Shown here one piece after another: positions 18,597 to 64,000 of a DNA stretch of 64,000 nt (position 1 is its first letter; each line of letters opens with the position of its first letter). This DNA comes from Isoetes taiwanensis. Lineage: Eukaryota; Streptophyta; Lycopodiopsida; Isoetales; Isoetaceae. Under the pieces are notes generated by a model. The model searched no databases. It saw nothing but the letters and a program-made list of their open reading frames with translations, and was not told where the DNA came from. Position numbers and translations under genes: made by a program. The stretch covers positions 1,839,454 through 1,903,453 of the forward strand of contig JAJEKV010000033.1 in NCBI GenBank assembly GCA_021234155.1. The letters are read 5' to 3'.

Positions 18597-21470
18597 CTTT
18601 TAGAATCGTCTAAATCTGATGGGAAGACGATTTAGAAGTAGAAAGTAATGGAGCTGTAATGAAAATCACAGGTTTTGGACTAAAGACGAAAAATGCAGTT
18701 TTCAAGTGCCAAATACAGATCAAGCACTTGCAGGATCTACAAGTGAAAATGGTGAAATAATAGCGAAATTATTACAAAGGATGGGAACCTTGTAAAGCGG
18801 CAGATGCATCAGTGGAAAACACGGCGACAAGAATAAAGTCCATCGGAGGAACGGTGCAGAAAAGGCAGACCAAAGAAACAAAACAGGAAGCTGCAGGGCA
18901 TTTTCCAAAACACAGGTAAGAAAGAAGAGACAATGATAAGGCATCAAACGGGACGAAGAAAGGGCAGGAAATAATGGAGGAAAAACCAAGGGAAAGAAGC
19001 TGGGGGGCGCCATGGCCAAAGCTTGGAAGCCCAAAAAGAGCTCCTCCGGTAGAAAGGCGCTGGGCAAGAGATAAGAAGTTGAATTGGAAGTGCGAGTCTT
19101 TCTTATAGACAGTTTTTGGAGGGTTAGAGAGAAAGGCCTTCAAAAGGCAGATGAGAGAAGGGCTGTTTCTGAGAAGGCTCCCTACCGCCTGCACTTCCTG
19201 AAATGCTCAGATTTTTACAAATTTATGCCTCCATTTTTTTTTTTGTTGCATCATTATTCCATGATTTCCATGTTTGTTTTCTCTAAATCATCCCTTGATC
19301 ATCTATGCATACTTCCAGCCTCCACTTTCTCCAGCCTTAAAATTTATATTGCCCTAAACGTGCTCTTTCTTCATTCAATGTTAGTCCTATCGTGAGGTGG
19401 TAATTATCTCCCTTTGTAACGCTTCTTATTTAATGGTTCCTTTTTCCTTTGCCCCTTAGCCCATGGTGGCACATTTTATTATCATATAATCCATCATACT
19501 TAGTATCATGGTTCTCTGCCCCTACGCTTTCCATCGCAGTTCTCGGTTGCAGCTTGCGATTGTCCCCAACTCTTTCCTCGCCTCTCATCTTCCCAATGCT
19601 CCCTCCATGCCCATCGATTCCCCTCGGTTTTAATGCTGCTCTCCCTCTTTCTGCTTGAAAAATAAAATCTTTCCTTTACACGCTCTTCTATTGTTCCCTC
19701 CTTGGCTTCCTCTGGCCCAACTTTCCTAACCACATTGATTAAAAGGTTCTTTATGGTTTCTTACACCCAAATCAAGCTTCGAGAAAGTTCAACAAAAGAA
19801 GACTTTTAGAATCAAGTTTCAAAAGAAAAACCCGGACACCCAACACATAGGAAGCCAAACAAGTAGACGTGCTTTTGCATCTCAAACTATCATTATCTAA
19901 CTAAGATGTATCCATTGTCTTTAGCTACATGGTGGCGTGATGCTTTATCGACATGAGAACCTAAAGTTGAAGGATGTTGTTAATATAAAGTCTGTCCTTT
20001 TTGGCAAAACCAACTCATTATAAAGTACTCATGACAAGTGCCTCGTTAAACTTGGATTAATCAATCTCGAATCCGCGACTTCAAACTTCTCGATTTGCTT
20101 TCCGATTTTTACGGTATCATGACTCCTAGATCTATGTGTTTTCAATCCTCAATGAATCTTCATGTAATCTTCCAACCAAAGTGTGGATGCCATCTCCTTT
20201 ATTGGAGTATCATGCTTCTAGCCTTTATAAGGGCTATAACTATATGGTATATATAGTTATGGCATTATTCTATCTTCATACTTCAAGGTTCATTGGAATA
20301 CCACCCATGTAATTTGTATGTTGGACAATAATAAATTCTTAACCACCTTTTAAGAGACAAAAGCTTATAAGTTCGAGTTCAATGTTCAAGGTTAGGTACT
20401 ATGAATTGTGACTTAAAATGAATTCAATGAGTCCACATATTTTAGGTCGGATAGAACACTCCATGAATTTTGGTTGGCCACGTGGAGTTCAGGTATTCAC
20501 CGAAACAATATTTCTCGCATTCAGCCTTGATCTAGACCGCGTGGCATCCTTGTGGATCTTGATTATTCATGTCTATTCAAATGAACTCACGGCGTTTGGC
20601 TCTATTTCCATATCAATTTCTCCGATAGGTAGTCGCTGAGTCAGCATCACGCATGAGACATGTGATTCTTATAGTCCTACTCGCTAAAGTTCATGGGACA
20701 TAGTTTCCATCCATGACTGCAGCATCAAGTACCTCCATATCAGCTAAAATGCTTCTACACAATCTTCTAGGGCTCCAAAGGAATGCATTATAACATACTA
20801 ATCTTTTTTGAGGTGTAGTCCACTGATACTTTCCTTCAAGGAATCTTTATCTCATTTGAATAATACTTATAACATGAATTCTACCACTTCTCTATTAGCC
20901 AATTTTACGTCTTTGTCCTGTAAGATTCCTCACCATTACATAATACATAGCTAGATAGATGAATAGTTAAATTTAACATCCCTCTTGAGACCAACAAAGG
21001 ACGGTAAACTCACAAATCAATGAGAAGTTGACCAAAAATAAGAGATAAGAAGATTAATATGTTCATGTTAAGGACTTTATTTGCAAATCTTTCCGATCAA
21101 GCATTGGAGAATATTTCCTATGTTTGTTAAACATACACAAAACTCAACATTCACACGTTGGATCACTACAATACATCGTGCATTTTCTTGGAAAGGGATT
21201 CAGCGGCCGATTGAATTGATTTGGTAGAGCGAGGGTCGAATGGTCTAATCAGGTAAAATTACTACTAATGAGCAATCAATTGCCATAAAAATTGAATGTA
21301 TTTCTCTTATATAGTAGGCATGTAAAGGTGTGATCAATGGCCCTTTAATTAAGCTAAATGGTTCATAAAGAAGCGCGGAGTCATAGATAGACTAGTAATG
21401 GTGCAGTTGCTGGAGCATAGAGATTAAAGGAAACCTGTAAATGCTGGAATGCAGTAGAAAAGCCATATCC
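18597..21470. other. Intergenic DNA upstream of the small gene
   Basis: The minus frame 18772-19194 (140 codons, starting MQAVGSLLRNSPSLICLLK) has an N-terminus that looks like an organelle-targeting peptide. It then becomes Ser/Phe/Leu-rich low complexity without a domain, and could be 5' UTR or a chance frame. From 19200 to 21470 nothing is recognised. Confidence 0.3.
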
Positions 21471-22962
21471 TTCCCCTTTCCTTTTCTCTCTCTCTCTCTC
21501 TACTTTTTTTTTTTCTTTCCTTTTCTTCGTCTTTCTCACATGTTTGTATTTTCCCATCCCTTTTCCTTCCCCTTCCACACACTACATTCAGATAGCCTTT
21601 TTCCCTTCCTTTTGCTCCTTTCTCCGCCTTTTCCCTCTTCTCTTTTTTTCTTTGCCATTTCCCTTCCCCTTTCTCTTTTTTATGCCTTCTCTTTTTCCCC
21701 ACCCTTTTCCATATCTTCCCTTTTTCTCAACCTTTTACTCTTTTCGCCCTTTTTCCATACCTATTTTTTCCCTTCTCTTTTCCTCCATTTCCCCTCTTTT
21801 CCTCCTTTTTTTGTGTACCATTTTTCCCTTCCATTTTTCTTTTTCTCCCTCAGTTTTTCCATGCCCTTTTTACCTTCCCTTTTCCATCTCCTCACCCTTT
21901 TCCCTCTTTCCTTTTCCATGTTCCTTTTCCTCTTCCCCTTTTCCATTTCCTTTTCAGGTGCCTCTCTCTCTTTTCCCCCCCTTTTCCATTCTTTTTCTTT
22001 TCTCTTCCCTTTTCCCATGCCCTTTTTCCACCCTTTTCTTCTTTCCTATTTTTTCAGGTGCTTCCTTTTCCTCCTTTTCCCACCCTTTCCCTCTTCAGGT
22101 GCAATTTTCCCTTCTTTCAACCCTCCTTTTTTCTTTTCTCTTTTCCTTCCTCCTTGTCTTTTCCTTTCCCTCCCTCCATCCTCCCTGCTTCCCTTTCCCG
22201 TTCCTTTTTCCGTTTCCTTTTCTTGAGTGGTTTTCTTTTCAGGTTTTCCTCCTTTTGCAGATCCTTTTCGTGCACTTTTTCCCTTCCTTCCTTTTCCTTT
22301 TCCTTTTCCTTTTCCATGCCTTTTGCACATTTTGTTTATTCTCTTATTTCCTATACCATTTTCCTCTTTTTCCCACCCTTTCTCTCTTTGCCTTTTCTTT
22401 TCCTTTTTTCTTTCCCTTTCTTCATCATTTCCTCTTCCCTTTTCTCTCATGCCCTTCCCCCTTCCCTTTTCTCGTTTCCCTCTTTCTTTTTTCCTTGTGA
22501 CCTTTACCTAGGTTCCCTATTCCCCTTGTCCTTCCCTTTTTCCCTCTTTTTTTTTTTCCCTTTTCCTATGCCATTGTCCCTTCCTTTTTTTCTCTTTCCT
22601 CAGCGGCTTCTCTTTTTTCCCCCCTTTTCCCATGCTCCTTCCTTTTTCCATGCTTTTTTCTCCTCCTCTTTTTCATGCTTTTTTTCTCCTTCATTTTTTC
22701 CTTTTCCTACCTTTTCCTCTTCCTTTTTTTTCCTTACCCTTTCCATTTACTTTCCGCTTCTCTCTTCCTCCTTCCCTCGTGCTGCCCTTTTCGGGTTCCC
22801 TTTTCCTTTTAGATTTCCATGCCTTTTTCTCTTCTCTTATCCCCACCCTTTTCCCTTTTCCTTTTACCCTTTTCCCTTTTCCCCATGTCTTTTTGCCCTT
22901 CACATTCTCCTTTCCACTTCCTTTTCCTTTTCCCTTTTCATTTTACCCTTTTTCCCTTAAGA
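21471..22962 (+). repeat. 1.5-kb polypyrimidine/polypurine tract
   Basis: Nearly every base on the plus strand is C or T, in irregular reiterations of CCCTTTTCC, TTCCTTTTCC and CTCTTTTCCC, interrupted by occasional ATG or GCA triplets such as CCATGCC and TCAGGTGC. It begins with a CT dinucleotide run at about 21487 and stops sharply at TTAAGAGATG (22957-22966). Overlapping open frames of up to 318 codons on both strands (Phe/Pro/Ser/Leu on one, Lys/Glu/Arg/Gly on the other) result from the composition and are not genes. Confidence 0.9.
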
Positions 22963-23100
22963 GATGAGCATGTGACCAACCAGTGTTGGTAAAGTAAATT
23001 CTGTCCTAAATCTAGGCAGCCGGATGCATCAAATAGTCGGCCATTCAAATTAGGGGCTTGATGCACACTACACACTTCACAGTATAACATTACTCCATGT

Positions 23101-28330: not shown

Positions 28331-29281
28331 CTTGATGATCATGGCAACTTCTTCCTCATCAATGCCAAGTCTATAGCTTTCTTAGTAATAATAATGTAGA
28401 CCTCAAATGGCTTATCCAAATTTGGAGTCTTGAATAGAGTATCTTCATATATGGATATGATCAGTAGGTCAAAGGCTTCTTGGCATTCTAATGCCCATGA
28501 AATAGGAATGAATTTGCTCTCAGACTTGAAGAACTTACCTACTTTGTTTAGGTTAGAAATAGAACTAATGATATGATCACAGTTCAGAATATACATTCTA
28601 AGAAACTAGTTATGTCAATGAAACTTTTAACCTGCTTCAATGTTTTAGGAGGCGCCAACCTTTTTAGTGCTTCAACCTTGCCTTGAGCTTCTTGGATTCC
28701 TTTGTTGGATACTTCATATCCTAGCAACTGCCCTTTGGATGCAAAGAAGATGCACTTCTTAGGATTAAGATTGACTCCAAAATTTCTGCATAAAGAGCAA
28801 ACCTTCTAAAGCAGTTCCAAATGATTAGTGGAGCAAGAACTTAAGCACAAGTCATCCAAGGACACTATGAATTCCTTGGTTGACATGGAACTAAAATAAC
28901 ATCCATATCTCTTTGGAAAGTGGTTGGTGCATACGTCAAACCAAAAGGCATCCTTTTTATGGCATAAGTGCCCCAAGGAGTAATAAAACAAGTTTTTGGT
29001 TGATCTTCCTCCTCAATGCTTATCTGGTGAAGATTTGAAAGACCATCCAGAAATGAATACATATCTTTTTCTTCCACAACATATAAAATTCCCTCTAGAA
29101 TTGACAAAGGGTAGCAATCCTTGATGATAGCTTTGTTGAGATCCTTATAATCTATACAAATTCTCAAGGCTCCACTCCTTTTCTCTATTGATACAATATA
29201 AGACACCCATTCAGGGTTGATGATCTCTATTATGACACCTGCATCCAACATCTTATATAACTCTTCTTTGATTAATCCCAT
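28331..29281 (-). pseudogene. Ty3/gypsy reverse transcriptase with truncated RNase H
   Basis: The frame at 28865-29281 carries the reverse transcriptase fingers and palm: KEELYKMLDAGVIIEI, RICIDYKDLNKAIIKDCYPL, SFLDGLSNLHQI and MPFGLTYAPTTFQRDM. The YIDD-like catalytic loop would follow at about 28810-28860. There the frame is broken, but DDLCLSS-type coding remnants are visible on the complementary reading. The thumb region (ECQEAFDLLIISI, TLFKTPNLDKPFEVYI) is at 28339-28596. What follows is only the first strand of the standard RNase H domain before the integrase zinc finger, so that domain appears deleted here. Confidence 0.85.
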
Positions 29282-29308
29282 AAGTGAGGCATTGATCCTT
29301 CTTAATTT

Positions 29309-31430: not shown

Positions 31431-33935
31431 GCAGCAGGCGTATTGCTGCCCGGGTTGAAAAAAAAAAAAAACCCGCCCCGAAGGTTTTCGAGGGAAAAAA
31501 GTTAGCAGCAATAAGTCCGCTAACAAGCTGTATAAATATACATACATATACACATCATGCAGTATTTCCTGCCCATCAAGTGGTTGTTCGGGGGCATATG
31601 CAAGCCCTTAGATCCATTATCTCCTGAATGTATGATTCCAGCGAGCGCATCGAGGCCGTGCTCGGTATCATGTGTAGCGGTTGGTTTGGTCTGACCAAGA
31701 GAGCATAGCATGCTCGGATCTGATGATATGCCTGAAAGCTCTAAAAAGTGTGACATTCATCCTCAATGGCTCCTATCTCGCAGCACTAGCAAAGCCTATC
31801 CTGGCGTGGTTCCCCAATCCACCTGCATGTCTCAATGCGGAGTGGTGGGCACCTGTGCGAATTGAGGCGATGAGCCCGTGCTTTTCATGGGCAGATGCGA
31901 ACGCAGGTAGCATTGTGGGCTGCAGTTCTATGGGGTTTATGTGTTCCTTGTAATGTGTCATTTTGACCTACTCCATGGTCCTAAGGTCCCAAAGCTTGCT
32001 GAGGAAATAAGTGTCAAGGTAATACCTCTGTGTCCACATGTATGCACCTGTGCTCCTGCACATTCCATCTGGCAAACCATTGAGCTCTCTTGTCCTTCCA
32101 GCAGGCCTTCAGCCGTTGCAGTCCCATTGCTATGGTGTAAGCCAGGTGCGGAAGACATGCATCGTCCATATTGACAATTTTCTGAAAATAGACAATGTGT
32201 TTATCAAGGGTTGCCCTCTGAAGTGGCAAAAATCCTGTCTTCTGCAACACGATTTGATATGGGACCGTGGATTTCACCCCGAGTACCCATGCTAAGAAGG
32301 CTTTTTACATTTGTTCTAAGTCATTCCAAGTCGCCAGGGATACCACCGGCCACGGACCTCAACCCCATACAGAAGAAAAGGTTCCACCAGTACCCTGAAC
32401 AAATGTGACTGATGACCCCAATCATATAGTGTAGCTATTGTTTTGCATTGCATAGAGCGCTTTCCAGCCTGCCGTGACCTGCATAGTGCCTGTTGGATAT
32501 ATCCCAACATAGTGCTGAAGGAAACTCCACTCCACAGTACTTGTAGGTGGGCGTCACCCCCACAATTTGCCCCCGATAGGTGAATGAAGGGGGTCTGGGG
32601 TGGCATAAAGATGATATTAGGACCACCTTAGTCTTGGCCAGACGCGCATGTCTATGGCCTAGCAGAATGCATCCAGGGCGTCTAAATGAAACTGCATATC
32701 CTCTAGAGTGTGGGTTAGGAGGTCGACATTATCCGCATAAATGAGCTGCCTGTTGACTTGATGCAAAAGCTGGGTGCCACCACCACCACAGTCAACAAGC
32801 CAAGTTTCGAACTGTCAATGTAAAGGCCAAATAGCATTGGAGAGAGAGGATATCTCTGTCGGACCCCGATACTGTTGGTAAATGGTTGCCCCATCGGTTG
32901 CATTAGGCTAGAACAACTCTTATGCAGCCTGTACACTGCATTCTGCATCTCCACAGGAAGCCCTAGTTGACGCAGTCTTGCCCACAGCTTTTCCTGAGGC
33001 ACAGTGTCAAAAGCTTTCACGAAGTCAAGGAAGTAGCAACATAGATCTTGCCAGCGATTTGCTGTCTTCAACCAAGGTCCTCAATGTGAAGATATGACCA
33101 ATAGTTGAGTGGCGAGGTCTGAAGCCTGCTTGCATGAGGGCCCACACGTCTGCTGCCTCTACCGATCTGGTCATCTACTGCTCGAGAATGCCAGCTAGAA
33201 TTTTGGCAAACATTGAACTGACCATGCCGGTAGTTGGCTGGAGTGTGTGGATCTCCTGCCTTGTAAATAGGAACAACCCTGCTTGTGGTCCATTGCTGGG
33301 GGAAACCTTCATATAATGCTCTGTTGAACAGGGTAGTAAGGATCGGTACTATAGGCTGCCCTGCCCACTTGAGCAATTTTGCTTGCATGCTGTCCAGGTC
33401 TGCTGCTTTCCCAATGACCAGATGTTGTAGGCCCTGGATGACATCATCCTCTGTAAGTTATACTGTCAGACCATTTTATGGGGGGTATGGGTGTTCGCAT
33501 CCCAGGGGGATCATATAGCTGCTGCAAGTACTGCTCCCACTGCCCAGTAGTGATATGCCATGTAGGCTACACTGGCTTGAAGCACCCTTCTCCAGAAGGT
33601 TCTGGGATAAAGCAGGTAGAATATTTCCCTTTGGTGCCTTGCGAGGTACCGCGCTTTCTTTTCCTTTAGGAATGCGTGATATTGTGCGGTGGCCTGTGGA
33701 CGCATAGCTGCGTCCGTTGATCTGGTGAAGCCTACGTTTGTGTTCCTTGTGTTCAGCATCAAACCACAGGTTATGCGGGAAGGTTGTGGTTCCTGGAATC
33801 CTTCGTGGGTGGTTTCTCCTGAAACACCATTCTGCTGTGGTTTGTAGTCACTCAATAAGCTGGCTCGTCTGCTGCTCTAGCATGGTGGCCAGCAAAATTC
33901 CTACCAGGTCATCTGTGAACATTCCGGCATAAGAC
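31431..33935 (-). mobile_element. LINE ORF2 (reverse transcriptase), 5'-truncated and decayed
   Basis: Minus-strand domains, from the 5' side: endonuclease-RT linker (33511-33930, with YHAFLKEKKARYLARHQRE); RT start LLKWAGQPIVPILTTLFNRA (about 33330-33380) and TTSRVVPIYKAGDPHTPANY (about 33230-33280); palm FLDFVKAFDTVPQEKLWARL (about 32970-33030); YPLSPMLFGLYID (about 32830-32860); catalytic loop IYADNVDLLTHTLED (about 32700-32745); thumb-like YKYCGVEF; LVEPFLLYGVEV (about 32355); and a C-terminal Cys/His box ending DECHTF...CYALL near 31700-31740. The catalytic YADD is YADN, so the second Asp is lost. Frame changes occur near 32430, 32700 and 33070. A stretch of A/T and GGGTT repeats near 31455 belongs to the 3' UTR. 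Non-LTR retrotransposons copy their RNA at a nicked target. Confidence 0.85.
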
Positions 33936-43750: not shown

Positions 43751-44545
43751 ATGTGTGTTCTCCTACACATGCTCTGCAATGCACATAAAGCCCTTTGTCC
43801 ACCATCGATTCGTTGTGTGATGCATGCATTCCATCTATGATTCCTGTTAAATACAAGGCCCATTGAATATTTGTATGAATCACACATACTTACCATATTT
43901 CCTTTATATCTGAAAATGGGTTCTTGTTTAAGCGCTCCTACAATCATAATGCTCGTTTTTTCGAGGTTCACCTGCATACTTGTTTGATAACAAAAATCAG
44001 CCAACCCTTCCAAGTGTTTTTGCATATGATCCTTAGAGCGTGCAAAAATGACTACATCATCTGCATACATTAGCAACTGGATCAGATATCCATGTATTTC
44101 CATTCCCCCTGGGCAAACTCTTAAGCAACCAATCCTCTAAACCATCAATAAAAAGTCCAAACAATGTGGGGGATAGCGGACATCCCTGTTTCACCCCAAG
44201 ATTACTTTCAACCTGGATATCCAATGAAAATGGTAAAGATAATTGCACAAGCACGTTTTCATACAAAACTCGGACTGCATCTCTAAGCTCCTTGGGTACC
44301 TTCAACTTATCCAACCTTTCCCACAATTGGTCACATGGCACCTTATCAAATGCTTTCTTAAAGTCTACAAATGCCATGTAAACTGTTTTTTTAGTAGCTT
44401 TAACCATATCAGATATAGTTTTTAACACTAATAAGTGGTCTAAAGTAGCCCTTCCTGCTCTAAAACCTGCTTGTGATTCTGCGCACTTTTGATTGTGCTC
44501 TGCCCAAATATTAATCGTTTTTTCTAAGGTAGTGGCAAAAAGCTT
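43717..44545 (-). mobile_element. LINE copy C3: reverse transcriptase palm
   Basis: The minus frames 44057-44428 and 43717-44103 carry YMAFVDFKKAFDKVPCDQLW, GVKQGCPLSPTLFGLFIDG, the intact catalytic loop LLMYADDVVIFARS, VNLEKTSIMIVG and a thumb segment ending near 43755. Both catalytic Asp residues of YADD are kept. The copy is truncated on both sides: its 3' side merges into C2, and its 5' side stops next to the (AG)n run. This is the best-preserved RT of the cluster. Confidence 0.85.
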
Positions 44546-46850
<2,305 letters not shown>

Positions 46851-54314: not shown

Positions 54315-55795
54315 TTTTTTATCTATTTTTAGTGATTTAAATATTACATACAATGGTTTAGTAAAAAAGAACCCAAAAATCTTATTTTTGATTAAAACCT
54401 TCTTTTTCCAATCAAAAATCTGTAAAAAGCATCTGCAAATGAAGTAAAACAACTTGAAGACATTAAAATTGTACATAATTTCATTAAGACATCAAACCAC
54501 TTTCAAAGTTCTCAGGTGGCAATTAAAAGTAAAACTAAACTTTTGACAATTTAAAGTTTGAAATATTCAAACGCATGTTATCTGACTGCAATTCCTCATA
54601 AGTCAAGCCACTTTTCTGGGTTGATGTTATATTTCTTCATATGTCCATGCAAATGCGAGTATCCTAAGAGGTTATCAAAAGAGACATGCAAGTGTGAAAT
54701 TGGACGACTGCCCTATTTAAGACTACCTTCACCTCTGATGGCATACAAAAATATCAAATTTAATGTTGTAGAAGTGTGTTCCTTAATGGGATAATATGTA
54801 TATATACATAAACAATTTAATAATTAACTAAGAAAAAATTGAGTAATAAAAATAATCAATGGTTTAGATCACTAAACCCTTATTTGACCCTAATCTGTGG
54901 CAAACATCAGCTCAAAGCTGCGACTATGGCAGCCATAGCTTTGACCTAATGGTAGCGTATAGCTATGGCTACCACATTCGAGCTCTTAATGGCTATGGCT
55001 TCGAGCTAACGGGCAGCTTACAGCTTTGAGCTATGAGGCCAAGAATCAGAACCAAGAATCCATGCTGCCCTTGACATTTTATCTAGCAAAGAGCGGGAGT
55101 GTTCATACTGTTGTTACTTAAGCTTGAAATAGTTTTGGGCATCCAACAGCTGCGGTTGCAGATCAGGTGCTATGTTATCATGTAGGTCCTCGCTAATGAA
55201 AAATATATGGAGAATTGTGGAATAGCAATCTCCATTACTTATGCTATTGGAGTATTTATTTCAGCTATGCCTAGCTTATTCCTTTTATCATTGGAATTCT
55301 AGATATGATTATGCTATCCTACGCATCATAGGGATCTGTCGTATTGCTAATCCTATCGATATGAGTTCTGCATGGCGAACTTCGTTCTAAGAATATGGCA
55401 AGGCTTCATTCCAAGTATATGGCAAGGCTTCATTCTAAGAATATTAAGAGCTTGCATTTTCGATTGGATCTAACTCTGGACGGCTCTGTATTAGCTCCTC
55501 TTTTATTTCCCTTTTTACTGGAATGAAAGGGGGAACAACAAATCTGAACTTAACAACCAGAGAATCGAAGATAACTGCCCAATAATCGGATTTAGTCTGC
55601 TACCATTTTGTGTTTGGTTTTCCAAACAAAGGAAGCAATGTCGTCTGTAGGGGATACAGTCTCTAGCAAGGATGCTTGCAGGGGTTGCTTTTTGGCAAGG
55701 ATGCTTGCAGGGGTTGCTTTTTGTAGACGGATGCCAACAATCGCCATGCCACTGCTCTAGAGTTGGATGAAACAAGGCCCTGATTCTACTCGAAA
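54315..55795. other. Intergenic DNA with short tandem duplications
   Basis: Includes a 10-bp inverted repeat (ATTTTTGATT/AATCAAAAAT near 54380-54420) and repeats of CTATGGC and GCTTTGAGCT at 54905-55045. ATATGGCAAGGCTTCATTC occurs twice at 55395-55430, and a 31-bp unit (GCAAGGATGCTTGCAGGGG, then TTGCTTTTT) occurs twice at 55665-55725. No gene was seen. Confidence 0.5.
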
Positions 55796-56046
55796 TGTTA
55801 GGGCAGGCCACATTTCTCCATATTATCACCCTTCTTACATCCTATAACTTTCATGTCCTAACTGGCAAACTGCTAGTGCTCGCGGATTGAACAAAAGGGA
55901 GCGGCACGTGCGAAATGTGGACTGCCCCTAACATTTCGAGGGGAAATGTTCGCTGGCTGGCCATTACACGGGGTGCGGCCACTGGCTCGCCCTAACGGAC
56001 TCGCCAGGGCCTTACCCCGGCCAGCCAACGAACATTACCCCTAACA
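55796..56046 (-). mobile_element. 251-bp non-autonomous relative of the tyrosine-recombinase transposon
   Basis: It starts TGTTAGGG-CAGGCCACATTT (55796) and ends CCCCTAACA (56046), with an inner inverted copy GAAATGTGGACTGCCCCTAA ending at 55933. The first about 80 bp (CACATTTCT, TTACATCCTATAACTTTC, GCTAGTGC) resemble the left end of the element at 56729. The last about 130 bp (CACGTGCGAAATGTG, TAACATTTCGAGGGG, then a hairpin) resemble its right end. All coding sequence is missing. The terminal hairpin arms are 55945-55962 and 56019-56036 (17 of 18 pair). This is a MITE-like deletion derivative. Confidence 0.8.
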
Positions 56047-56079: not shown

Positions 56080-56340
56080 AATGGGGCGTCTGCCCGATTT
56101 CATGCTATTTTGAATCTTTCATCAACAGTTTCAAAGATAATATGGGACGGGCAAATTGGGTGCTTGCCGGATTTGTGGATGAGGAATGTTTTAACATATA
56201 TAGTTCCAAAGGCCACAGGGGGCAAGCAAATTGGGCGCCTGCCCAATTTAAATATCATGTGGAAGGAACAATGTGCATGGAGTATGTAAGGCAAATTTTG
56301 GTAGAGCCAAACATTAAATTGGGCATCCGCCCAATTTGAA
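56080..56340. repeat. Four copies of the palindrome AAATTGGGC-N4-GCCCAATTT
   Basis: Copies lie at about 56080, 56151, 56225 and 56314. The last two are perfect or near-perfect palindromes (AAATTGGGCGCCTGCCCAATTT is the clearest); the first two have one to three changes. Spacing is 70-90 bp. No coding sequence was recognised; the frames at 56059-56339 on both strands follow the repeats. Confidence 0.75.
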
Positions 56341-56728
56341 TGCCAAGAAAAAGTAAAAATATGGGATTAACTTAAAATAAAGAAGAAGATGTCAATGAAT
56401 AAGGTAAGGCAATAGGCATGTTGAAGGCATAAACATAGAAGTTAGGAGAGCCCCGAATTGAGCACCCCCTTCTTGTGACAACACATAACAATAGAAGTTA
56501 GGAGGGCCCCAAAGTAGGCACCCCTTCCATATAAAATAAGAGACATGCATGCAAAAAGACCAAGAGAATGAAAATCCAAGCAGGCAAAGCAAGGAAACTA
56601 TATAATAGGAATATAAACAATAAGAAAGGAGATCTGTTAACCTTAGGCAGTCTTGGACATGCAGAAACACCTCAAAAGGTCCTCTGGATGATGGGTGACT
56701 TTCTTGGATATGCAAAAAGACCTCAAAA
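56341..56728. other. Spacer with two tandem duplications
   Basis: ATAGAAGTTAGGAGRGCCCC occurs at about 56436 and 56501. TCTTGGAYATGCARAAA followed by CCTCAAAA occurs at about 56650 and 56703. The second of these abuts the left end of the transposon, which helps fix the boundary at TGTTAGGG (56729), because CCTCAAAA belongs to the flank. Confidence 0.6.
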
Positions 56729-56864
56729 TGTTAGGGTAGGCCACATTTCTTGTTATTATCATCTGTTTTACATCCTATAATTTTCTATGACTTTCCTGTG
56801 ACACCTGGCAGAGTGCTAGTGCCAGCTGTCCTATCTAGTGCCATCTGGCAGTGCTTGTGCCAGC

Positions 56865-56995
56865 ACAATTCAAATTCACAATTAAATTATTCACAATTCA
56901 CCAATAGATTCAGTTTCCATTCAAAATTACAATTCACCAATAGATTCAGTTTCCATTCAAAATTTCAGTTTCCATTCAAAATTTGCAGTGCTTCA
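56865..56995 (+). repeat. Tandem repeat inside the transposon's 3' region
   Basis: CACAATTCACCAATAGATTC, then AGTTTCCATTCAAAAT, is repeated twice in full. A third partial unit, CAGTTTCCATTCAAAAT, follows, with ATTCACAATT leading in. It lies between the end of the recombinase reading frame and the left TIR. Confidence 0.9.
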
Positions 56996-57073
56996 AGCAA
57001 TCTGCAATTCATTACAAGTTTCATTCAAAAAAAAGGAGTTTCAACTGCCATTACATACATTCAACAAGTTTTA

Positions 57074-59040
57074 TCAGATAGACTTATCAGAATTACAAGA
57101 TTGCCTATGATATTTGTGGAGTGCGTTTTTGATCTCACTGGCATCAGTGCACTGAATGAACAAACAGTTGCTCACACTTGCTAAAAAGGAAAAACCAGAA
57201 ACGTGCTGTAGAGAATTACCACTGACAAGAGTTTTTGATGATGGGATTTTCAAATCCAATAACGTTTCATCAGAAATACCCTCATAGAAACTAGCATTTT
57301 CTTTGTCATTTCCAAAACCTGGAGGCTTAGAAACACAAATTGCTGGCATAGCAATTTCCTTCCCCTTAACTGAACTTGACTCCTTCACAGATACTTGATG
57401 GCCAGCACTGTCATTTGGATCAACTGCAACTAAAACACGAGATGGAGCAGAAGATGAACCAGTGCAATCATTGATTTGTTTCTTCTCAATTTCAGCAGCT
57501 AACACTGATTCATAAGTCCTGGGAGCACCAGTTTCAGTAACTGGATTAGAGATAATAGACATAGCAGCACGCATCTGAATATCCTTCGTCCTGTCATACC
57601 TAAGAAACAAAAATTATCAACAAATTATAACAACATTATACAATCAGAAATTACCAATAACTTACTTTTCATACGCTTCAAGTGATCGATGCCCTGTGAT
57701 TCTCATACCGACCTCAGCAGGAACACCTGCCATCGCCAATCGTGTAACAGTTGCAACGCATCCAGATTTATTCGAGATCTCCCTATGATCAATTAAAGAC
57801 CCCATTGTCTTAATACAAGATTTTATCATCTCCAGTCCAACTTTATTGGTGGAATACCAGACCTCAAAAGCAACAATCAGTAATAAAAGTTGAATCTCAA
57901 CCTAAGCAATAACATAAAAAAGGTCAAACTACTTACATTTCCAGCAGGCCTGTTGATAGAAGTCAGAAACAAACTCCTAGGTTCATCATTATCTTTGGCA
58001 GGCATATGCCTAACATATTGCTTAAAAGTCATGACAAAATCTGCCTCATGCGTGCGAACAGGCTCCCTAAAATGACTGCTATCATATCTTGTTGCAGTTA
58101 CCTGATAATTCTTGCTCGCCCTCTCACTGTATTCTATAAACTCACCACAGTCATCACTGCCAAGAGAAAGATCAGTATCTAGCAAATTATAAAGTTCTGT
58201 CGCTGCCCTAATCCCAAACCTTGAACAAAGGTAAAAACACAGACGTTTCTGACAGCCACGATTAAATGTCATTTGATGATCCACATCTGCTAATAGATCC
58301 CTTTCTAAACTGAAACTGATAGAAGGTGCCTTAACAGTCTTAGTCCCAACACCTTGCACCCTAGACCTCCTGGCAGCTAACACAAAAGCATATGTAGCTC
58401 TAGTGAAGATTTCATTCATAATTATATTGAGCCTCACTTCCTGATTTCCTGTCTCTCCAATCCTTTTCTCTTGATTCTTCCTGATCATTCTTCCAATAGC
58501 CCTGTATAAAACACTAAGGCTGCAAACACAAACAGTCAGCATAAAACCAAATTAAAAAATTGCATAAAAAACTTACCTGCCAGTGGGATACAGATCTCCA
58601 TTCTTCTTTTTCACTTGAAGCATGAATTTGACCAGCATATCATTTAACTCCTTCAATGGAATATCTTCGATAGGCATACTAGTATCAAGATCAAATGCCT
58701 TCCTCCAATTATCGAAACGTTTTCTAGCCTAAACCGAGACCCCAATAGACCTATCCCGACCACCAGATTCTGATTCCTTCATCAGTTCATCATCCAAAGC
58801 TAAAAACTCATCCTTATCCTTATTGTCCATATTATGCCAATCAATGTCCTTTACTTCAGCAGCAAACTCATCAATCTTATCAGAAGCAAAGGCTTCCAAA
58901 AACTTATCAACGTCTTCAGTAACTTCCTCCTCATCAACACCAGAAAGCATGGCAAAGGAATGCCACGTCTCAGCAGCCATCTGATCATCTATGGCACTCT
59001 GATAATCTATAGCACCTAGCTGATCTACAGAAGCATCCAT
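57074..59040 (-). pseudogene. Crypton/DUF3504-type tyrosine recombinase, spliced, catalytically decayed
   Basis: Four minus-strand exons can be joined with GT-AG introns: ATG 59040 to 58577; 58519-57937; 57862-57667; and from 57601 to the stop at 57074. Introns are 57 bp (58520-58576), 74 bp (57863-57936) and about 65 bp (57602-57666). The order is an acidic N-terminus; a SAM-like DNA-binding block (KELNDMLVKFMLQVKKKNGD, YPTGSLSVLYRAIGR); the catalytic fold with FGIRAATELYNL (first Arg) and YSERASKN (Lys); MTFKQYVRHMPAKD; VWYSTNKVG; and MRITGHRSLEAYEKYDRTKD (His and probable nucleophile Tyr). The HxxR box, usually NHSxR in this family, reads NKSGC, so its His and Arg are lost. A TAG at 58729-58731 interrupts exon 1 in frame. 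The C-terminal 170 residues are Ser/Glu-rich and unrecognised. The 59133 ATG is less likely than 59040 because it adds a hydrophobic leader atypical of the family. Such enzymes cut and rejoin DNA through a 3'-phosphotyrosine. Confidence 0.75.
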
Positions 59041-59814
59041 CTTTACAGGCCAGACAAAGAACAGAACCTTATAAGCTATAATGTTCACAAAGAAAAATAA
59101 AAAGGACATGAAAACAAGGTATTTAGCCATCACAGACCGATGTACACGCGAAATATTAGGGATATCGCAAAAAGCTCAAGATAAAAGCACAAAGTTTTGC
59201 ACGGAACAGACTAATCTGCATAGCAAATTCATATGCATAAGAAAGGTCGGGATAGGCTTGCAAGAAAGCACAGAAGCAAGAAAGAAAGGTCGGGATAGCC
59301 TTGCATGTTACTCCAACCGACACAACTGTAAAAAAAGCACACGGATCAGTCATATTCTCGTAGAAACATGCAAAAATAACAACAAGTCATGGTTTTATCT
59401 GAAGATTTTGCCAAGATATCAAGATCTTTCGCAAGAAATGATGCTCCATTGTTGCACGTACCTCCAGCTGACGAAATCTGCAAGAAAAACATGTTAGGAC
59501 GCATGCATTTCACAAAAATCATGCCAAAATTGAAAGATAATCATCAAAATCAAAAAATAATCATGCTAAACCTCTGAAAATACTGTCAGAAAATGCTGAA
59601 TCAACACAGAAGATGCTGGCGCCACTGAAAATGCTCCAAAATCGAGGCGCTACCACCAAAATCAACACCAGACAGTCCGCAACACACAAAAAGACGATGC
59701 AGCAAGCAAAAAAGTGGACAAGGAAGCTAAGCGGCTAACAGACCGCCATAGCTGACCTCGCCATAGCAAAAAATGTCGACTGTCCAAAATGTCCCAAAAT
59801 TTGGCGACACGTGC
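59041..59814. other. 5' region of the recombinase gene inside the transposon
   Basis: Presumed promoter and leader for the minus-strand gene. The plus frame 59081-59497 (138 codons) is Lys-rich. Its repeated piece AAAGGTCGGGATAGSCTTGCA (two copies near 59245 and 59285) argues for non-coding sequence. Confidence 0.4.
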
Positions 59815-59847
59815 GAAATGTGGCCTACCCCTAACATTTCGAGGGGG

Positions 59848-59918
59848 AATGTTCGGGCGTAGGCCATTACGCGAGGTGCGGCCACTGTACCCCGCGTAAT
59901 GGCCTACGCCCGAACATT
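59848..59918. repeat. Perfect 26-bp hairpin at the transposon end
   Basis: AATGTTCGGGCGTAGGCC with ATTACGCG (59848-59873) is exactly complementary to 59893-59918. The 19-bp loop contains GGTGCGGCCACTG. The equivalent loop in the 251-bp copy also contains GGTGCGGCCACTG although the stem sequence differs. Confidence 0.95.
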
Positions 59919-59928
59919 ACCCCTAACA

Positions 59929-62195
59929 GAAAGTCCTTCGGGAGGATGGGCGCTTTCATAAGGGGGTGGGAGGGGAGGGTGAGGGGTAGCGCATGATGGG
60001 ACAAGTGGCAGGCCCAAAATGAAATGTTCAAGGCGTATTTAGTGGGCCCATAACGTGTCACCCATCTTTTCAAGACTATTTAAAATCCAAAATAAAATTG
60101 CCACATGGACCTTTGGGTTGTTCAAATTCAAAATTTTCCCCTCAACTCAATATTGTCAAGCACCTTCTATCCCATTCCATATTCCAAGTGATTCGCCACC
60201 CGTCATAGCTGCTCTTGATTAGACTCATTTCCTCCTATTCTATCTCAATATTTTATCCTATATTTGAAACCGATCCATTAAGTGTTGGGGCTTCGCATAG
60301 GAAATAACAGACTCCAGGTCTATTATTCTCAGATGCAGCATCATCTCAAATGCCAACATCGATCCATTAAGAGTTCCGTCGTCCCAATCCACACCATTCC
60401 TATGCATATACAGTTAAAAGCAGTAATTAATAAAGGAAAACACAAAAACATATCCAACTGGAAATTGATAGACAGTGATTAAGGACGAAACTTAAATATA
60501 TGACCTCTAGGAGCAAGCCTTAACAAATAAATCGTGTATGGCAACAAAAAAGCTCTGCCAACAGAATCGTCATTTGAATCAGCATGTCATTTGAACCAGT
60601 GATTATATGTTGATCGACCTATCTGACCTAATACAACAGAGCTACAGGGCAAGCATCAAGCAAGATCCAGAACCACACAGCTAGTTCGGCCAGGGCAACA
60701 AATGAAATTCAGTTTATGTAGCCGACCAAGCCATGTCTTTGTGGCTGACGAAGCCAATCAATCAACTGCCATAAGCTCGAGCACATTTGCGCTCACGGAA
60801 CTCTCCATCCAGCAAACTAAAAATGGAGATACCAGCCAGGCGGCCGTTTATGGAATTAATGCCAGATTTGGCTCTGCAAAAAATCCACTGTACAGGGAAT
60901 GAAGCCGTCATTGTGCATATATTGTGCATGCCGGAATCATTTCGACCATTTACATTTGTAGAACACTTGGAATTGAACCATACTCTGCTAGAATCCAGAA
61001 CAAAATGAAGCCAAAAATTGAAAATGGAATAGCCCATTTCAATCGAACCATTGTGCAGGAAAATATAACCTGAAAATCCTATCTTAAGATTATATTGCCG
61101 TGAAGCCACGAAGACTCGTAGTTCAAATATTATTACCTAGATAGCCTGAAAGAAAATCGAAAGAGAATGGCTTGAAAGCTGATAGAAAAACCCTGCTTTT
61201 TTTTGTGCATTCCGGCCTTCAGCTTCAAAGATGCCTTCAGCTTCAAATCCGGCCTTAAGCTTCAATGATCCTTCGGCGCGGAAGGGAGGGCAGAATCCGA
61301 GGTGCAGAAGCCATAGCCAAGTCCGGCGGATAGCGTTTGTGCAGCAGGCTGATAATGGGGCTGGATGACCGACCATTTACAGGCAGCAGCCAGTTTTTAC
61401 CAGTCATCAGCATATGCTAGGTATATGCCAGCATATACTTGAATATGCCCACGTACCCACATAAACGAGGGTTTGCCCCCCTAGGGGCAACCCAAAAAGA
61501 GAAGTGTTAAAGAATGTCAATTGTTTCTGCACCTATAACTTGAGCTACAGAGGTCAGATCAGATGATCTTAGGCTCGTTGGAAAGTCTAGATAGAGAGCT
61601 TTCCATTGGCATATGATTTGACACAGATCTATCAAGGTAGATACCTGCTTTTTGTACTTTTCACTCCAGATACCTTTTTGCAAAGTGCATATTTGATGGT
61701 AATATGGTTTTTATCATAACTGACTCTATTTTGTATTTTTTATTGCGCTAGAAAGCTCTCTCCAGATTCTTTCTGATGATGTATGATATGATCATATTGG
61801 TTAAGTTTTCTGGGCCAAAATAACAAATTCTCGAGCGAATTTGATAACACCTGATTAAAACATTATTTGCACAAGAGCAAATCATACTCTTTGTCTAGCT
61901 GATCATTCTGGTCATGTACTTTGACCTATATCATTGCCGTGCAGTAAGCTTTTATGAAGATATTGAAGAGATGATGTTATCGTGGCCACGTTTTGTATCA
62001 GAAACTTTTAGTTTTGGTGTATTATGGGATTTGTGCTAGTTTATATGTTATTCATGAACTTGCCAATGTTTTTTAATCTTAGTAGTAATGATTGTACTAG
62101 CCCATTGTATGGGTCCCATGACCTATTGGTCTCCGTGAACGTTAAAAAAACTATTCTATTCTCTTCTATTTTTGAATTTTTATTTCTTTTTCAAA
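59929..62195. other. Intergenic DNA
   Basis: Holds the inverted copy (60290-60354) of the 66-bp repeat at 50550-50615 and a short CCTTCAGCTTCAA repeat at 61220-61265. It also has a region at 61400-61490 related in inverted orientation to 54190-54235 (CATATTCAAGTATATGCYRG). At 62120-62160 GGTCTCCGTGAACGTTAAAA is a plus-strand version of the LINE terminus with a CTATT-like tail. No gene was recognised. Confidence 0.45.
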
Positions 62196-63339: not shown

Positions 63340-64000
63340 CAAACATTACAAACTTTTTATAAGCTTTCCCTGCACCGTTGCACCTACACTGCCACATCAT
63401 TTAAGGATGGTTGAAAATGTGATCTTATCCGGTTTTATACCCTCAGACTCCATGTTATCAAAGCATTCCAATGCAAGTTCACCTCTTCTATTTTGAACAT
63501 AATCAGCAATCACAGAATTCCTTGATGCCACATTTGGTCTTATACCGTCATTTTGCATTTTCTTCAGACAGTCCAAGGCAAGGTGACCTTGCTGAGCATA
63601 TCCAGCAATTATTGCATTCCATGAGACAACATTTCGACTAGGCAAGTTATAGAGCATCCAACATGCCTCTTCCATGTTCTTGCACTTGGCATACATATCC
63701 ACAATTGTACTCCCAATGACAACATCAAGTTGCAGACCACTTTCAATTATCTCCTCATGAATACATCTACCCTTCTCTATTGTGCCTATGGTAGTGCAGG
63801 CTTTCAAAAGCCCAAGAAATGTAACTTTGCTAGGTTTCGCGCCATCTTTCTGCATTCTTTGGAAATAATCCAGGTCTACATCCTTCTCCATTTTGGGCAT
63901 ATACTGCAACCATTGCGCTCCACGACACCACGTCTCTATTCTGTAATCCATCAAACACATGTTCTGCTTCCTCCAAACTCCCACATTTCCCATACATGTC
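63340..64000 (-). pseudogene. PPR (PLS-type) protein, 3' part, pseudogene running off the window
   Basis: PPR proteins bind organellar RNA through arrays of 31-36-residue repeats. The minus strand from 64000 begins MYGKCGSLEEAEHVFDGLQN and RDVVSWSAMVAVYAQNGE. A frameshift near 63895 moves the frame to that of 63397-63993: DYFQRMQKDGAKPSKVTFLG, LLKACTTIGTIEKGRCIHEE, VDMYAKCKNMEEACWMLYNL, RNVVSWNAIIAGYAQQG, CLKKMQNDGIRPN, CFDNMESEGIKPDKITF. The frame meets TGA at 63397-63399 exactly where LKACGS is expected. CGSVGATVQGKLI follows in frame, so the stop is a mutation. About five repeats with P, L and S features are visible. No E or DYW domain was seen downstream. The style resembles the large PPR families of ferns and other non-seed plants. 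Confidence 0.85.

Follow-up and report, generated by a model that had tools for sequence, protein, structure and literature searches.

The 64,000 nucleotides of Isoetes taiwanensis DNA analysed here (the window) contain a 3,200-bp element (positions 56729–59928, oriented by its gene on the minus strand) that carries a broken tyrosine-recombinase gene of the Crypton/DUF3504 type between structured ends. The element forms one insertion unit with a gain of three bases at its target, the recombinase relative is the only gene recognised in it, and the window also holds a non-coding relative whose ends are the same. With a probability of about 50%, we take it to be a decayed copy of a Crypton-like DNA transposon that encodes a tyrosine recombinase, has structured ends of its own and uses site-specific recombination. 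An earlier note on this DNA had recognised the enzyme type and proposed a single unit, and both parts of that interpretation hold; it missed that the copy is broken and that the layout of the ends resembles that of Helitron2.

The limits of the element are supported by a paralogous empty site and by the ends that it has in common with its small relative. Directly to the left of the 3.2-kb element lies an uninterrupted host repeat unit (56651–56703, plus strand), and the joined flanks of the element (left to 56728, right from 59929) give an alignment to this unit that runs through the junction (57 columns, 80.7%, E = 4.5 × 10−7 within the window). Against 56660–56712, the 35 bases with which the right flank begins scored 15, a value that none of 3,739 controls reached (maximum 13), and a phase-anchored comparison gave a flank score of 14 (0 of 9,080 controls reaching it; maximum 12). 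A broader comparison, of 62 flank bases with a 106-base target, was not significant, with 7 of 1,717 controls equal or higher (maximum 19.5); the significance of the empty site is carried by the narrower flank comparisons and the joined alignment. Because the joined flanks match an uninterrupted unit, the whole of 56729–59928, hairpin and gene included, would have entered as one piece, and a single insertion is the simplest reading of these alignments. The earlier proposal of one unit, with terminal inverted repeats (TIRs), a hairpin and the gene inside, is thereby borne out. We had also considered the hairpin as mere flanking DNA, which is ruled out by its presence in both elements and by an empty-site junction that lies outside it.

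The empty unit reads CCTC-AAAA-GGTCC and the filled site CCTC-AAAA-(element)-GAAA-GTCC, which amounts to a net gain of three bases. We read this gain as a direct repeat of AAA, or of RAAA with one difference, with AAAA as the left-hand copy and GAAA (59929–59932, plus strand) as the right-hand one; alternatively, the three gained bases could be part of the element itself. A TA duplication was ruled out, as the inverted repeat runs on past the TA. In the small element the corresponding bases are GAAA/AAGA, and its right flank, AAGACAC, holds no clean repeat of the left GAAA. The AAAA/GAAA repeat of the large element is backed by the empty site; a search of the window for an empty site of the small element found no paralogous unit.

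Both elements are directly preceded by the motif CTCRAAA (CTCAAAA at 56722–56728, plus strand, for the large element and CTCGAAA for the small one), which occurs at 28 of the 128,000 positions on both strands of the window. The uninterrupted host unit also carries CTCAAAA, so this heptamer pre-dated the insertion of the large element, and the possibility that it is element sequence is ruled out. In both elements the inner right repeat is likewise preceded by CTCGAAA. A target that resembles a sequence borne by the element is a prediction of conservative site-specific recombination.

The two ends of the element are unequal. The left inverted repeat (56729–56749, plus strand) opens the element, and its right counterpart (59815–59836, minus strand) is followed by an outward copy of CTCGAAA (59837–59843, minus strand). 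Of the 21-bp inverted repeats that had been placed around the gene, the left one stands, and the right one lies at 59815–59836 and not at 59928. The arms 56734–56749 and 59815–59830 are complementary at 16 of 16 positions, and with CTCRAAA added the match is 93% over 30 columns. Outside the right repeat sits a terminal hairpin (59842–59924) with 36-nt arms, two mismatches and an 11-nt loop, after which the element closes at 59928. Folded as DNA, 59815–59928 reaches −50.3 kcal/mol (z = −12.1), with none of 200 shuffles equally stable. The two extreme ends have only TGTTAGGG / CCCTAACA in common.

Each inverted repeat is itself palindromic (AAATGT-N11/12-ACATTT), and in both elements the left copy is one G shorter than the right. 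A variant of the AATGTTAGGG(G)TAGGCCA of the inverted repeats, AATGTTCGGGCGTAGGCCA, occurs in the hairpin arms. Allowing up to three mismatches, the repeat pattern has two matches in the window (0.01 expected), which are the right arms of the two elements; the left arms, with a spacer one base shorter, are unmatched by it. The looser pattern AATGTTNG-N(2-7)-GGCCA has six matches in the window, all within the ends of the two elements, compared with a mean of 0.07 and a maximum of 1 in 100 shuffles; this pattern was composed after the ends had been seen and fails two of the eight end-site copies, both in the small element. A search of viral contigs and genome contigs with the exact repeat patterns gave no match, and the Rfam and tRNA scans also gave none.

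The small relative (55796–56046, 251 bp) lacks a gene and has the ends of the large element, arranged in the same order. It aligns to the large element over 101 columns at the left end (77.2%, counted from CTC), over 84 bp of the right repeat and first hairpin arm (86.9%) and over the last 18 bp (100%), with homology ending at 56822 and resuming at 59804. It also has a hairpin (55939–56042), and 55912–56046 folds as DNA at −42.3 kcal/mol (z = −7.5; none of 200 shuffles equally stable). Of the 24 positions in the outer stem, 5 are changed on both arms from one element to the other, and these are paired in 5 of 5 cases in the large element and in 4 of 5 in the small one; stem position 6 is mismatched in both. 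Within the limits of two elements, this suggests that pairing has been kept, either through selection or because one arm was copied from the other. Through the small relative the ends are seen to form a family, which does not by itself make the gene a member of that family; gene and ends are tied together by a single gene-bearing copy. Both elements contain, between right repeat and hairpin, an inverted copy of a left-end junction (CCCCTCGAAATGTTAGGGG, minus strand; 59837–59848 and 55934–55945), which looks as though an element had inserted next to another at some earlier time.

Repeats of other kinds are found around these two elements. A 31-nt inverted repeat (56221–56251 and 56314–56344; 87% complementary, 62 nt apart) lies between them, with further related copies near it (AAATTGGGC...GCCCAATTT), and a perfect 29-bp tandem duplication (55666–55723) lies to the left of the small element. 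A second perfect tandem duplication, of 36 bp (56893–56964), sits within the large element on the 3′ side of the gene. Elsewhere, the window holds reverse-transcriptase fragments matching RVT_1 (28868–29308, E = 4.1 × 10−11; 32718–33080, E = 9.1 × 10−7, just below the cutoff; 44060–44683, E = 9.6 × 10−20), a partial pentatricopeptide-repeat (PPR) gene that runs off the window end (63400–63999; PPR_2, E = 6.1 × 10−27), as would be expected of a plant host, and a pyrimidine-rich stretch of about 1.5 kb (21421–22964) that is open in several frames, probably as an artefact of composition.

The recombinase gene (57074–59040, minus strand) consists of four exons (59040–58577, 58519–57937, 57862–57666 and 57599–57074), separated by introns of 57, 74 and 66 bp that start with GT and end with AG. 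The spliced frame has 589 codons ahead of the final stop, with one internal stop counted. All motifs quoted for this minus-strand gene in the earlier note were located, with KKKNGDLYPTGSL spanning intron 1. The description of a full recombinase layout holds only in part: the quoted motifs are present, but codon 104 (58731–58729) is a stop and the HxxR box has decayed. In a four-sequence alignment, the window protein has retained R259, K291, H407 and Y416 in the columns of the catalytic Arg, the Lys, the His of the TGH motif and the Tyr, respectively, and reads NKSGC where the homologues P0001–P0003 read NHSLR. Compared with the catalytic R-H-R-Y set, this decayed copy keeps the first Arg, the TGH His and the Tyr, and also the Lys, with KSGC in place of HxxR. 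With the stop at codon 104 and the KSGC box, the copy is broken, and the full enzyme could not be made from the sequence as it stands.

The assignment of the gene as a divergent Crypton/DUF3504-type tyrosine recombinase, which agrees with the earlier proposal, is a sequence-based one that rests on the homologues P0001–P0003, because the direct Pfam match is weak: the proposed search of the spliced protein with profile models matched DUF3504 with E = 0.0078 and 16.7 bits, below the cutoff of 29.7. A phmmer search of 5.77 billion proteins, in which the 7,995 candidates with the most words in common were scored, returned one protein at E ≤ 0.01 among them, P0001 (E = 1.9 × 10−7), with domains DUF3504 (1.2 × 10−36), Phage_integrase (4.9 × 10−9) and QRICH1 (1.4 × 10−6, just under the cutoff). 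A two-sequence profile of the window protein and P0001 also found P0002 and P0003, each with DUF3504, Phage_integrase and QRICH1. Identity to the homologues found is 24–26%, and the pairwise comparison with P0003 gave 79 identities in 326 positions (E = 3 × 10−13). A profile of all four sequences matched QRICH1 with E = 2.6 × 10−13, a match that we set aside, as three of its four rows are P0001–P0003.

Other searches with the window protein gave little. In NCBIfam it has no recombinase match, whereas the three homologues do; PHROGs returned only weak integrase matches (best E = 0.016), and a single-sequence search of the PDB gave one match at chance level (E = 0.79). Searching with residues 240–430 only produced 262 candidates, none at E ≤ 1, and in a protein-guided scan of viral contigs the pattern matched in 98 stretches, none of which was confirmed. 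A structure prediction for exon 2 with P0001–P0003 was discarded (mean pLDDT 39.7). In the parts of the element that we scanned, which were the spliced protein (in two pieces) and five further frames, Pfam gave no other family, and the best match in the further frames (E = 0.047) was far below the cutoff; in the same set, there was no match to a DDE transposase, a reverse transcriptase (RVT) or RepHel.

We favour a Crypton-like element, in which the inverted repeats and the arms of the hairpin would supply related binding sites (AATGTTNG...GGCCA) for the recombinase. The two extreme ends would be joined to form a circle, CCCCTAACA-core-TGTTAGGG, with a palindromic core site, and this circle would reinsert at a CTCRAAA-type target matching the core, leaving a short A-rich direct repeat; the hairpin may have some part in this. 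The similar sites in inverted repeats and hairpin arms argue for the reading, as do the resemblance of the target to the CTCGAAA inside the element and the short terminal direct repeats that Cryptons are described as leaving. Against it, the inverted repeats alone are wrongly oriented for excision by recombination between them, and the end layout is close to that of Helitron2 and HINEs. We write Crypton-like and do not file the element as a Crypton because Cryptons are expected to have no terminal inverted repeats, and here both inverted repeats and a hairpin are present.

The end layout is the starting point of the main rival explanation, which we regard as possible: the ends would be of the Helitron2/Helentron (HINE) type, driven by a RepHel protein encoded elsewhere, and the recombinase gene would be a passenger, acquired either by capture or through insertion of a Crypton into the element (with 56823–59803 as its outermost candidate limits). 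The likeness is striking. Helitron2 is described with a 5′ T, an inverted repeat at the 5′ end that folds into a 5′ hairpin, an inverted copy of this repeat upstream of a 3′ hairpin, and compensatory changes when relatives are compared (PMC3627910); HINEs with palindromic subterminal repeats near the 5′ end, a 3′ palindrome and, at a greater distance from the 3′ end, the inverted copy (PMC4067079); and Fusarium Helitron2 elements with a similar layout (PMC5148889). Here, too, the inverted repeats are asymmetric and palindromic, a terminal hairpin at the far end flanks the right copy on its outer side, and the stems co-vary in the two elements. The homology stop at 56822 and restart at 59804 would also be expected from nesting, and a Crypton of about 3 kb in an older element of about 250 bp would give the same picture in this window. 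However, the distances are larger than those described, with a much longer 3′ hairpin and a right repeat 92 bases from the end, compared with about 20–60 in the cited descriptions. The frames scanned gave no recognised RepHel domain. With the elements oriented as the layout requires, the downstream base is G in one element and A in the other, not the T of the described T-rich preferences; in the opposite orientation a T does follow, but the Helitron2 layout then misfits. Helitron insertion next to T would leave no target duplication, whereas the large element shows a net gain of three bases, and neither a short direct repeat nor a CTCRAAA target is a Helitron trait.

That the ends belong to a DDE cut-and-paste element, for example a Ginger-like one with TGTNR ends and a 4-bp duplication, and that the recombinase is its passenger or partner, seems unlikely to us. 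There is a precedent in MarCry-1_FO, in which a Crypton is combined with a Mariner element that has 16-bp TIRs and makes TA duplications (PMC3212892), and the ends here start with TGTTA and are flanked by AAAA/GAAA. A DDE-driven element is made less likely by the lack of any DDE match in the frames scanned, and the targets described for Ginger elements with TGTNR ends and 4-bp duplications (CCGG/CCGT for Ginger1, RTATAY for Ginger2; PMC2836005) are absent here. A hairpin outside the repeat is not part of the MarCry or Ginger descriptions in the available text of these sources. It is more improbable still, verging on negligible, that a domesticated DUF3504-related host gene lies between repeats by chance. 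The loss of the HxxR box would fit such a gene, as animal DUF3504 genes have lost most of the catalytic residues (PMC3212892); the internal stop in the frame, and the position of the gene within a demonstrable insertion, speak against it.

Returning to the Crypton-like reading, a stronger form of it is that there is a plant lineage of tyrosine-recombinase DNA transposons whose enzyme reads a folded hairpin at one end, conserved in shape and not in sequence, and inserts by core homology at CTCRAAA; we hold this to be rather doubtful. Integron integrases recognise attC sites as folded DNA hairpins, by shape. If such a lineage existed, it would unite the chemistry of Cryptons with a type of end that has otherwise been described for rolling-circle elements.

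Kojima and Jurka (2011, PMC3212892) list Cryptons of fungi, animals and stramenopiles in their table, and the only plant in the legend to the tree of that paper, which includes other recombinases too, is Chlamydomonas. Cryptons are described as generally lacking TIRs, with animal Cryptons reported to be without terminal repeats, and as leaving short (4–6 bp) terminal direct repeats that are alike in all copies (PMC8969392, PMC3212892); CryptonV comprises target-specific elements of cnidarians (PMC8869645). The label already exists in plants: a pipeline-made atlas of plant transposable elements lists 535 Crypton-labelled soybean copies, for which its available text gives no structure, and the older SoyTEdb has none (PMC8729191). 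In the available text of a land-plant review the word Crypton is absent (PMC9033089), in that of two further plant studies it appears only as a class in the introductions (PMC5846285, PMC11197308) and in that of another in general terms only (PMC11630846). Among the titles and abstract openings listed by our searches of the open-access literature, none reports a Crypton of a land plant or one with a terminal hairpin.

The element can be set beside four known systems. With DIRS-type retrotransposons it has a tyrosine recombinase in common, and DIRS-1 has inverted terminal repeats, but no reverse-transcriptase match occurs in the frames scanned here. Like MarCry-1_FO, it has a Crypton-type recombinase within a TIR element; unlike it, it lacks a DDE transposase match and its duplication is not TA. 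Cryptons resemble it in having a DUF3504/Crypton recombinase as the only gene recognised, what we read as a short terminal direct repeat, and non-coding derivatives; they differ in that the present element comes from a plant, has a terminal hairpin as well as inverted repeats, and encodes a protein of only 24–26% identity to the homologues found. The host range and insertion chemistry of such elements would become directly testable with a land-plant element whose ends are defined and for which a non-coding partner, an empty site and a target motif are available. With Helitron2, Helentrons and HINEs the element has in common a palindromic inverted repeat at one end, an inverted copy at the other with a terminal hairpin outside it, and co-varying stems; it differs from them in its lack of a recognised RepHel and of a downstream T, its larger spacing, its short direct repeat and its CTCRAAA target. 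This comparison raises the question of why the ends of a recombinase-bearing element resemble those of Helitron2.
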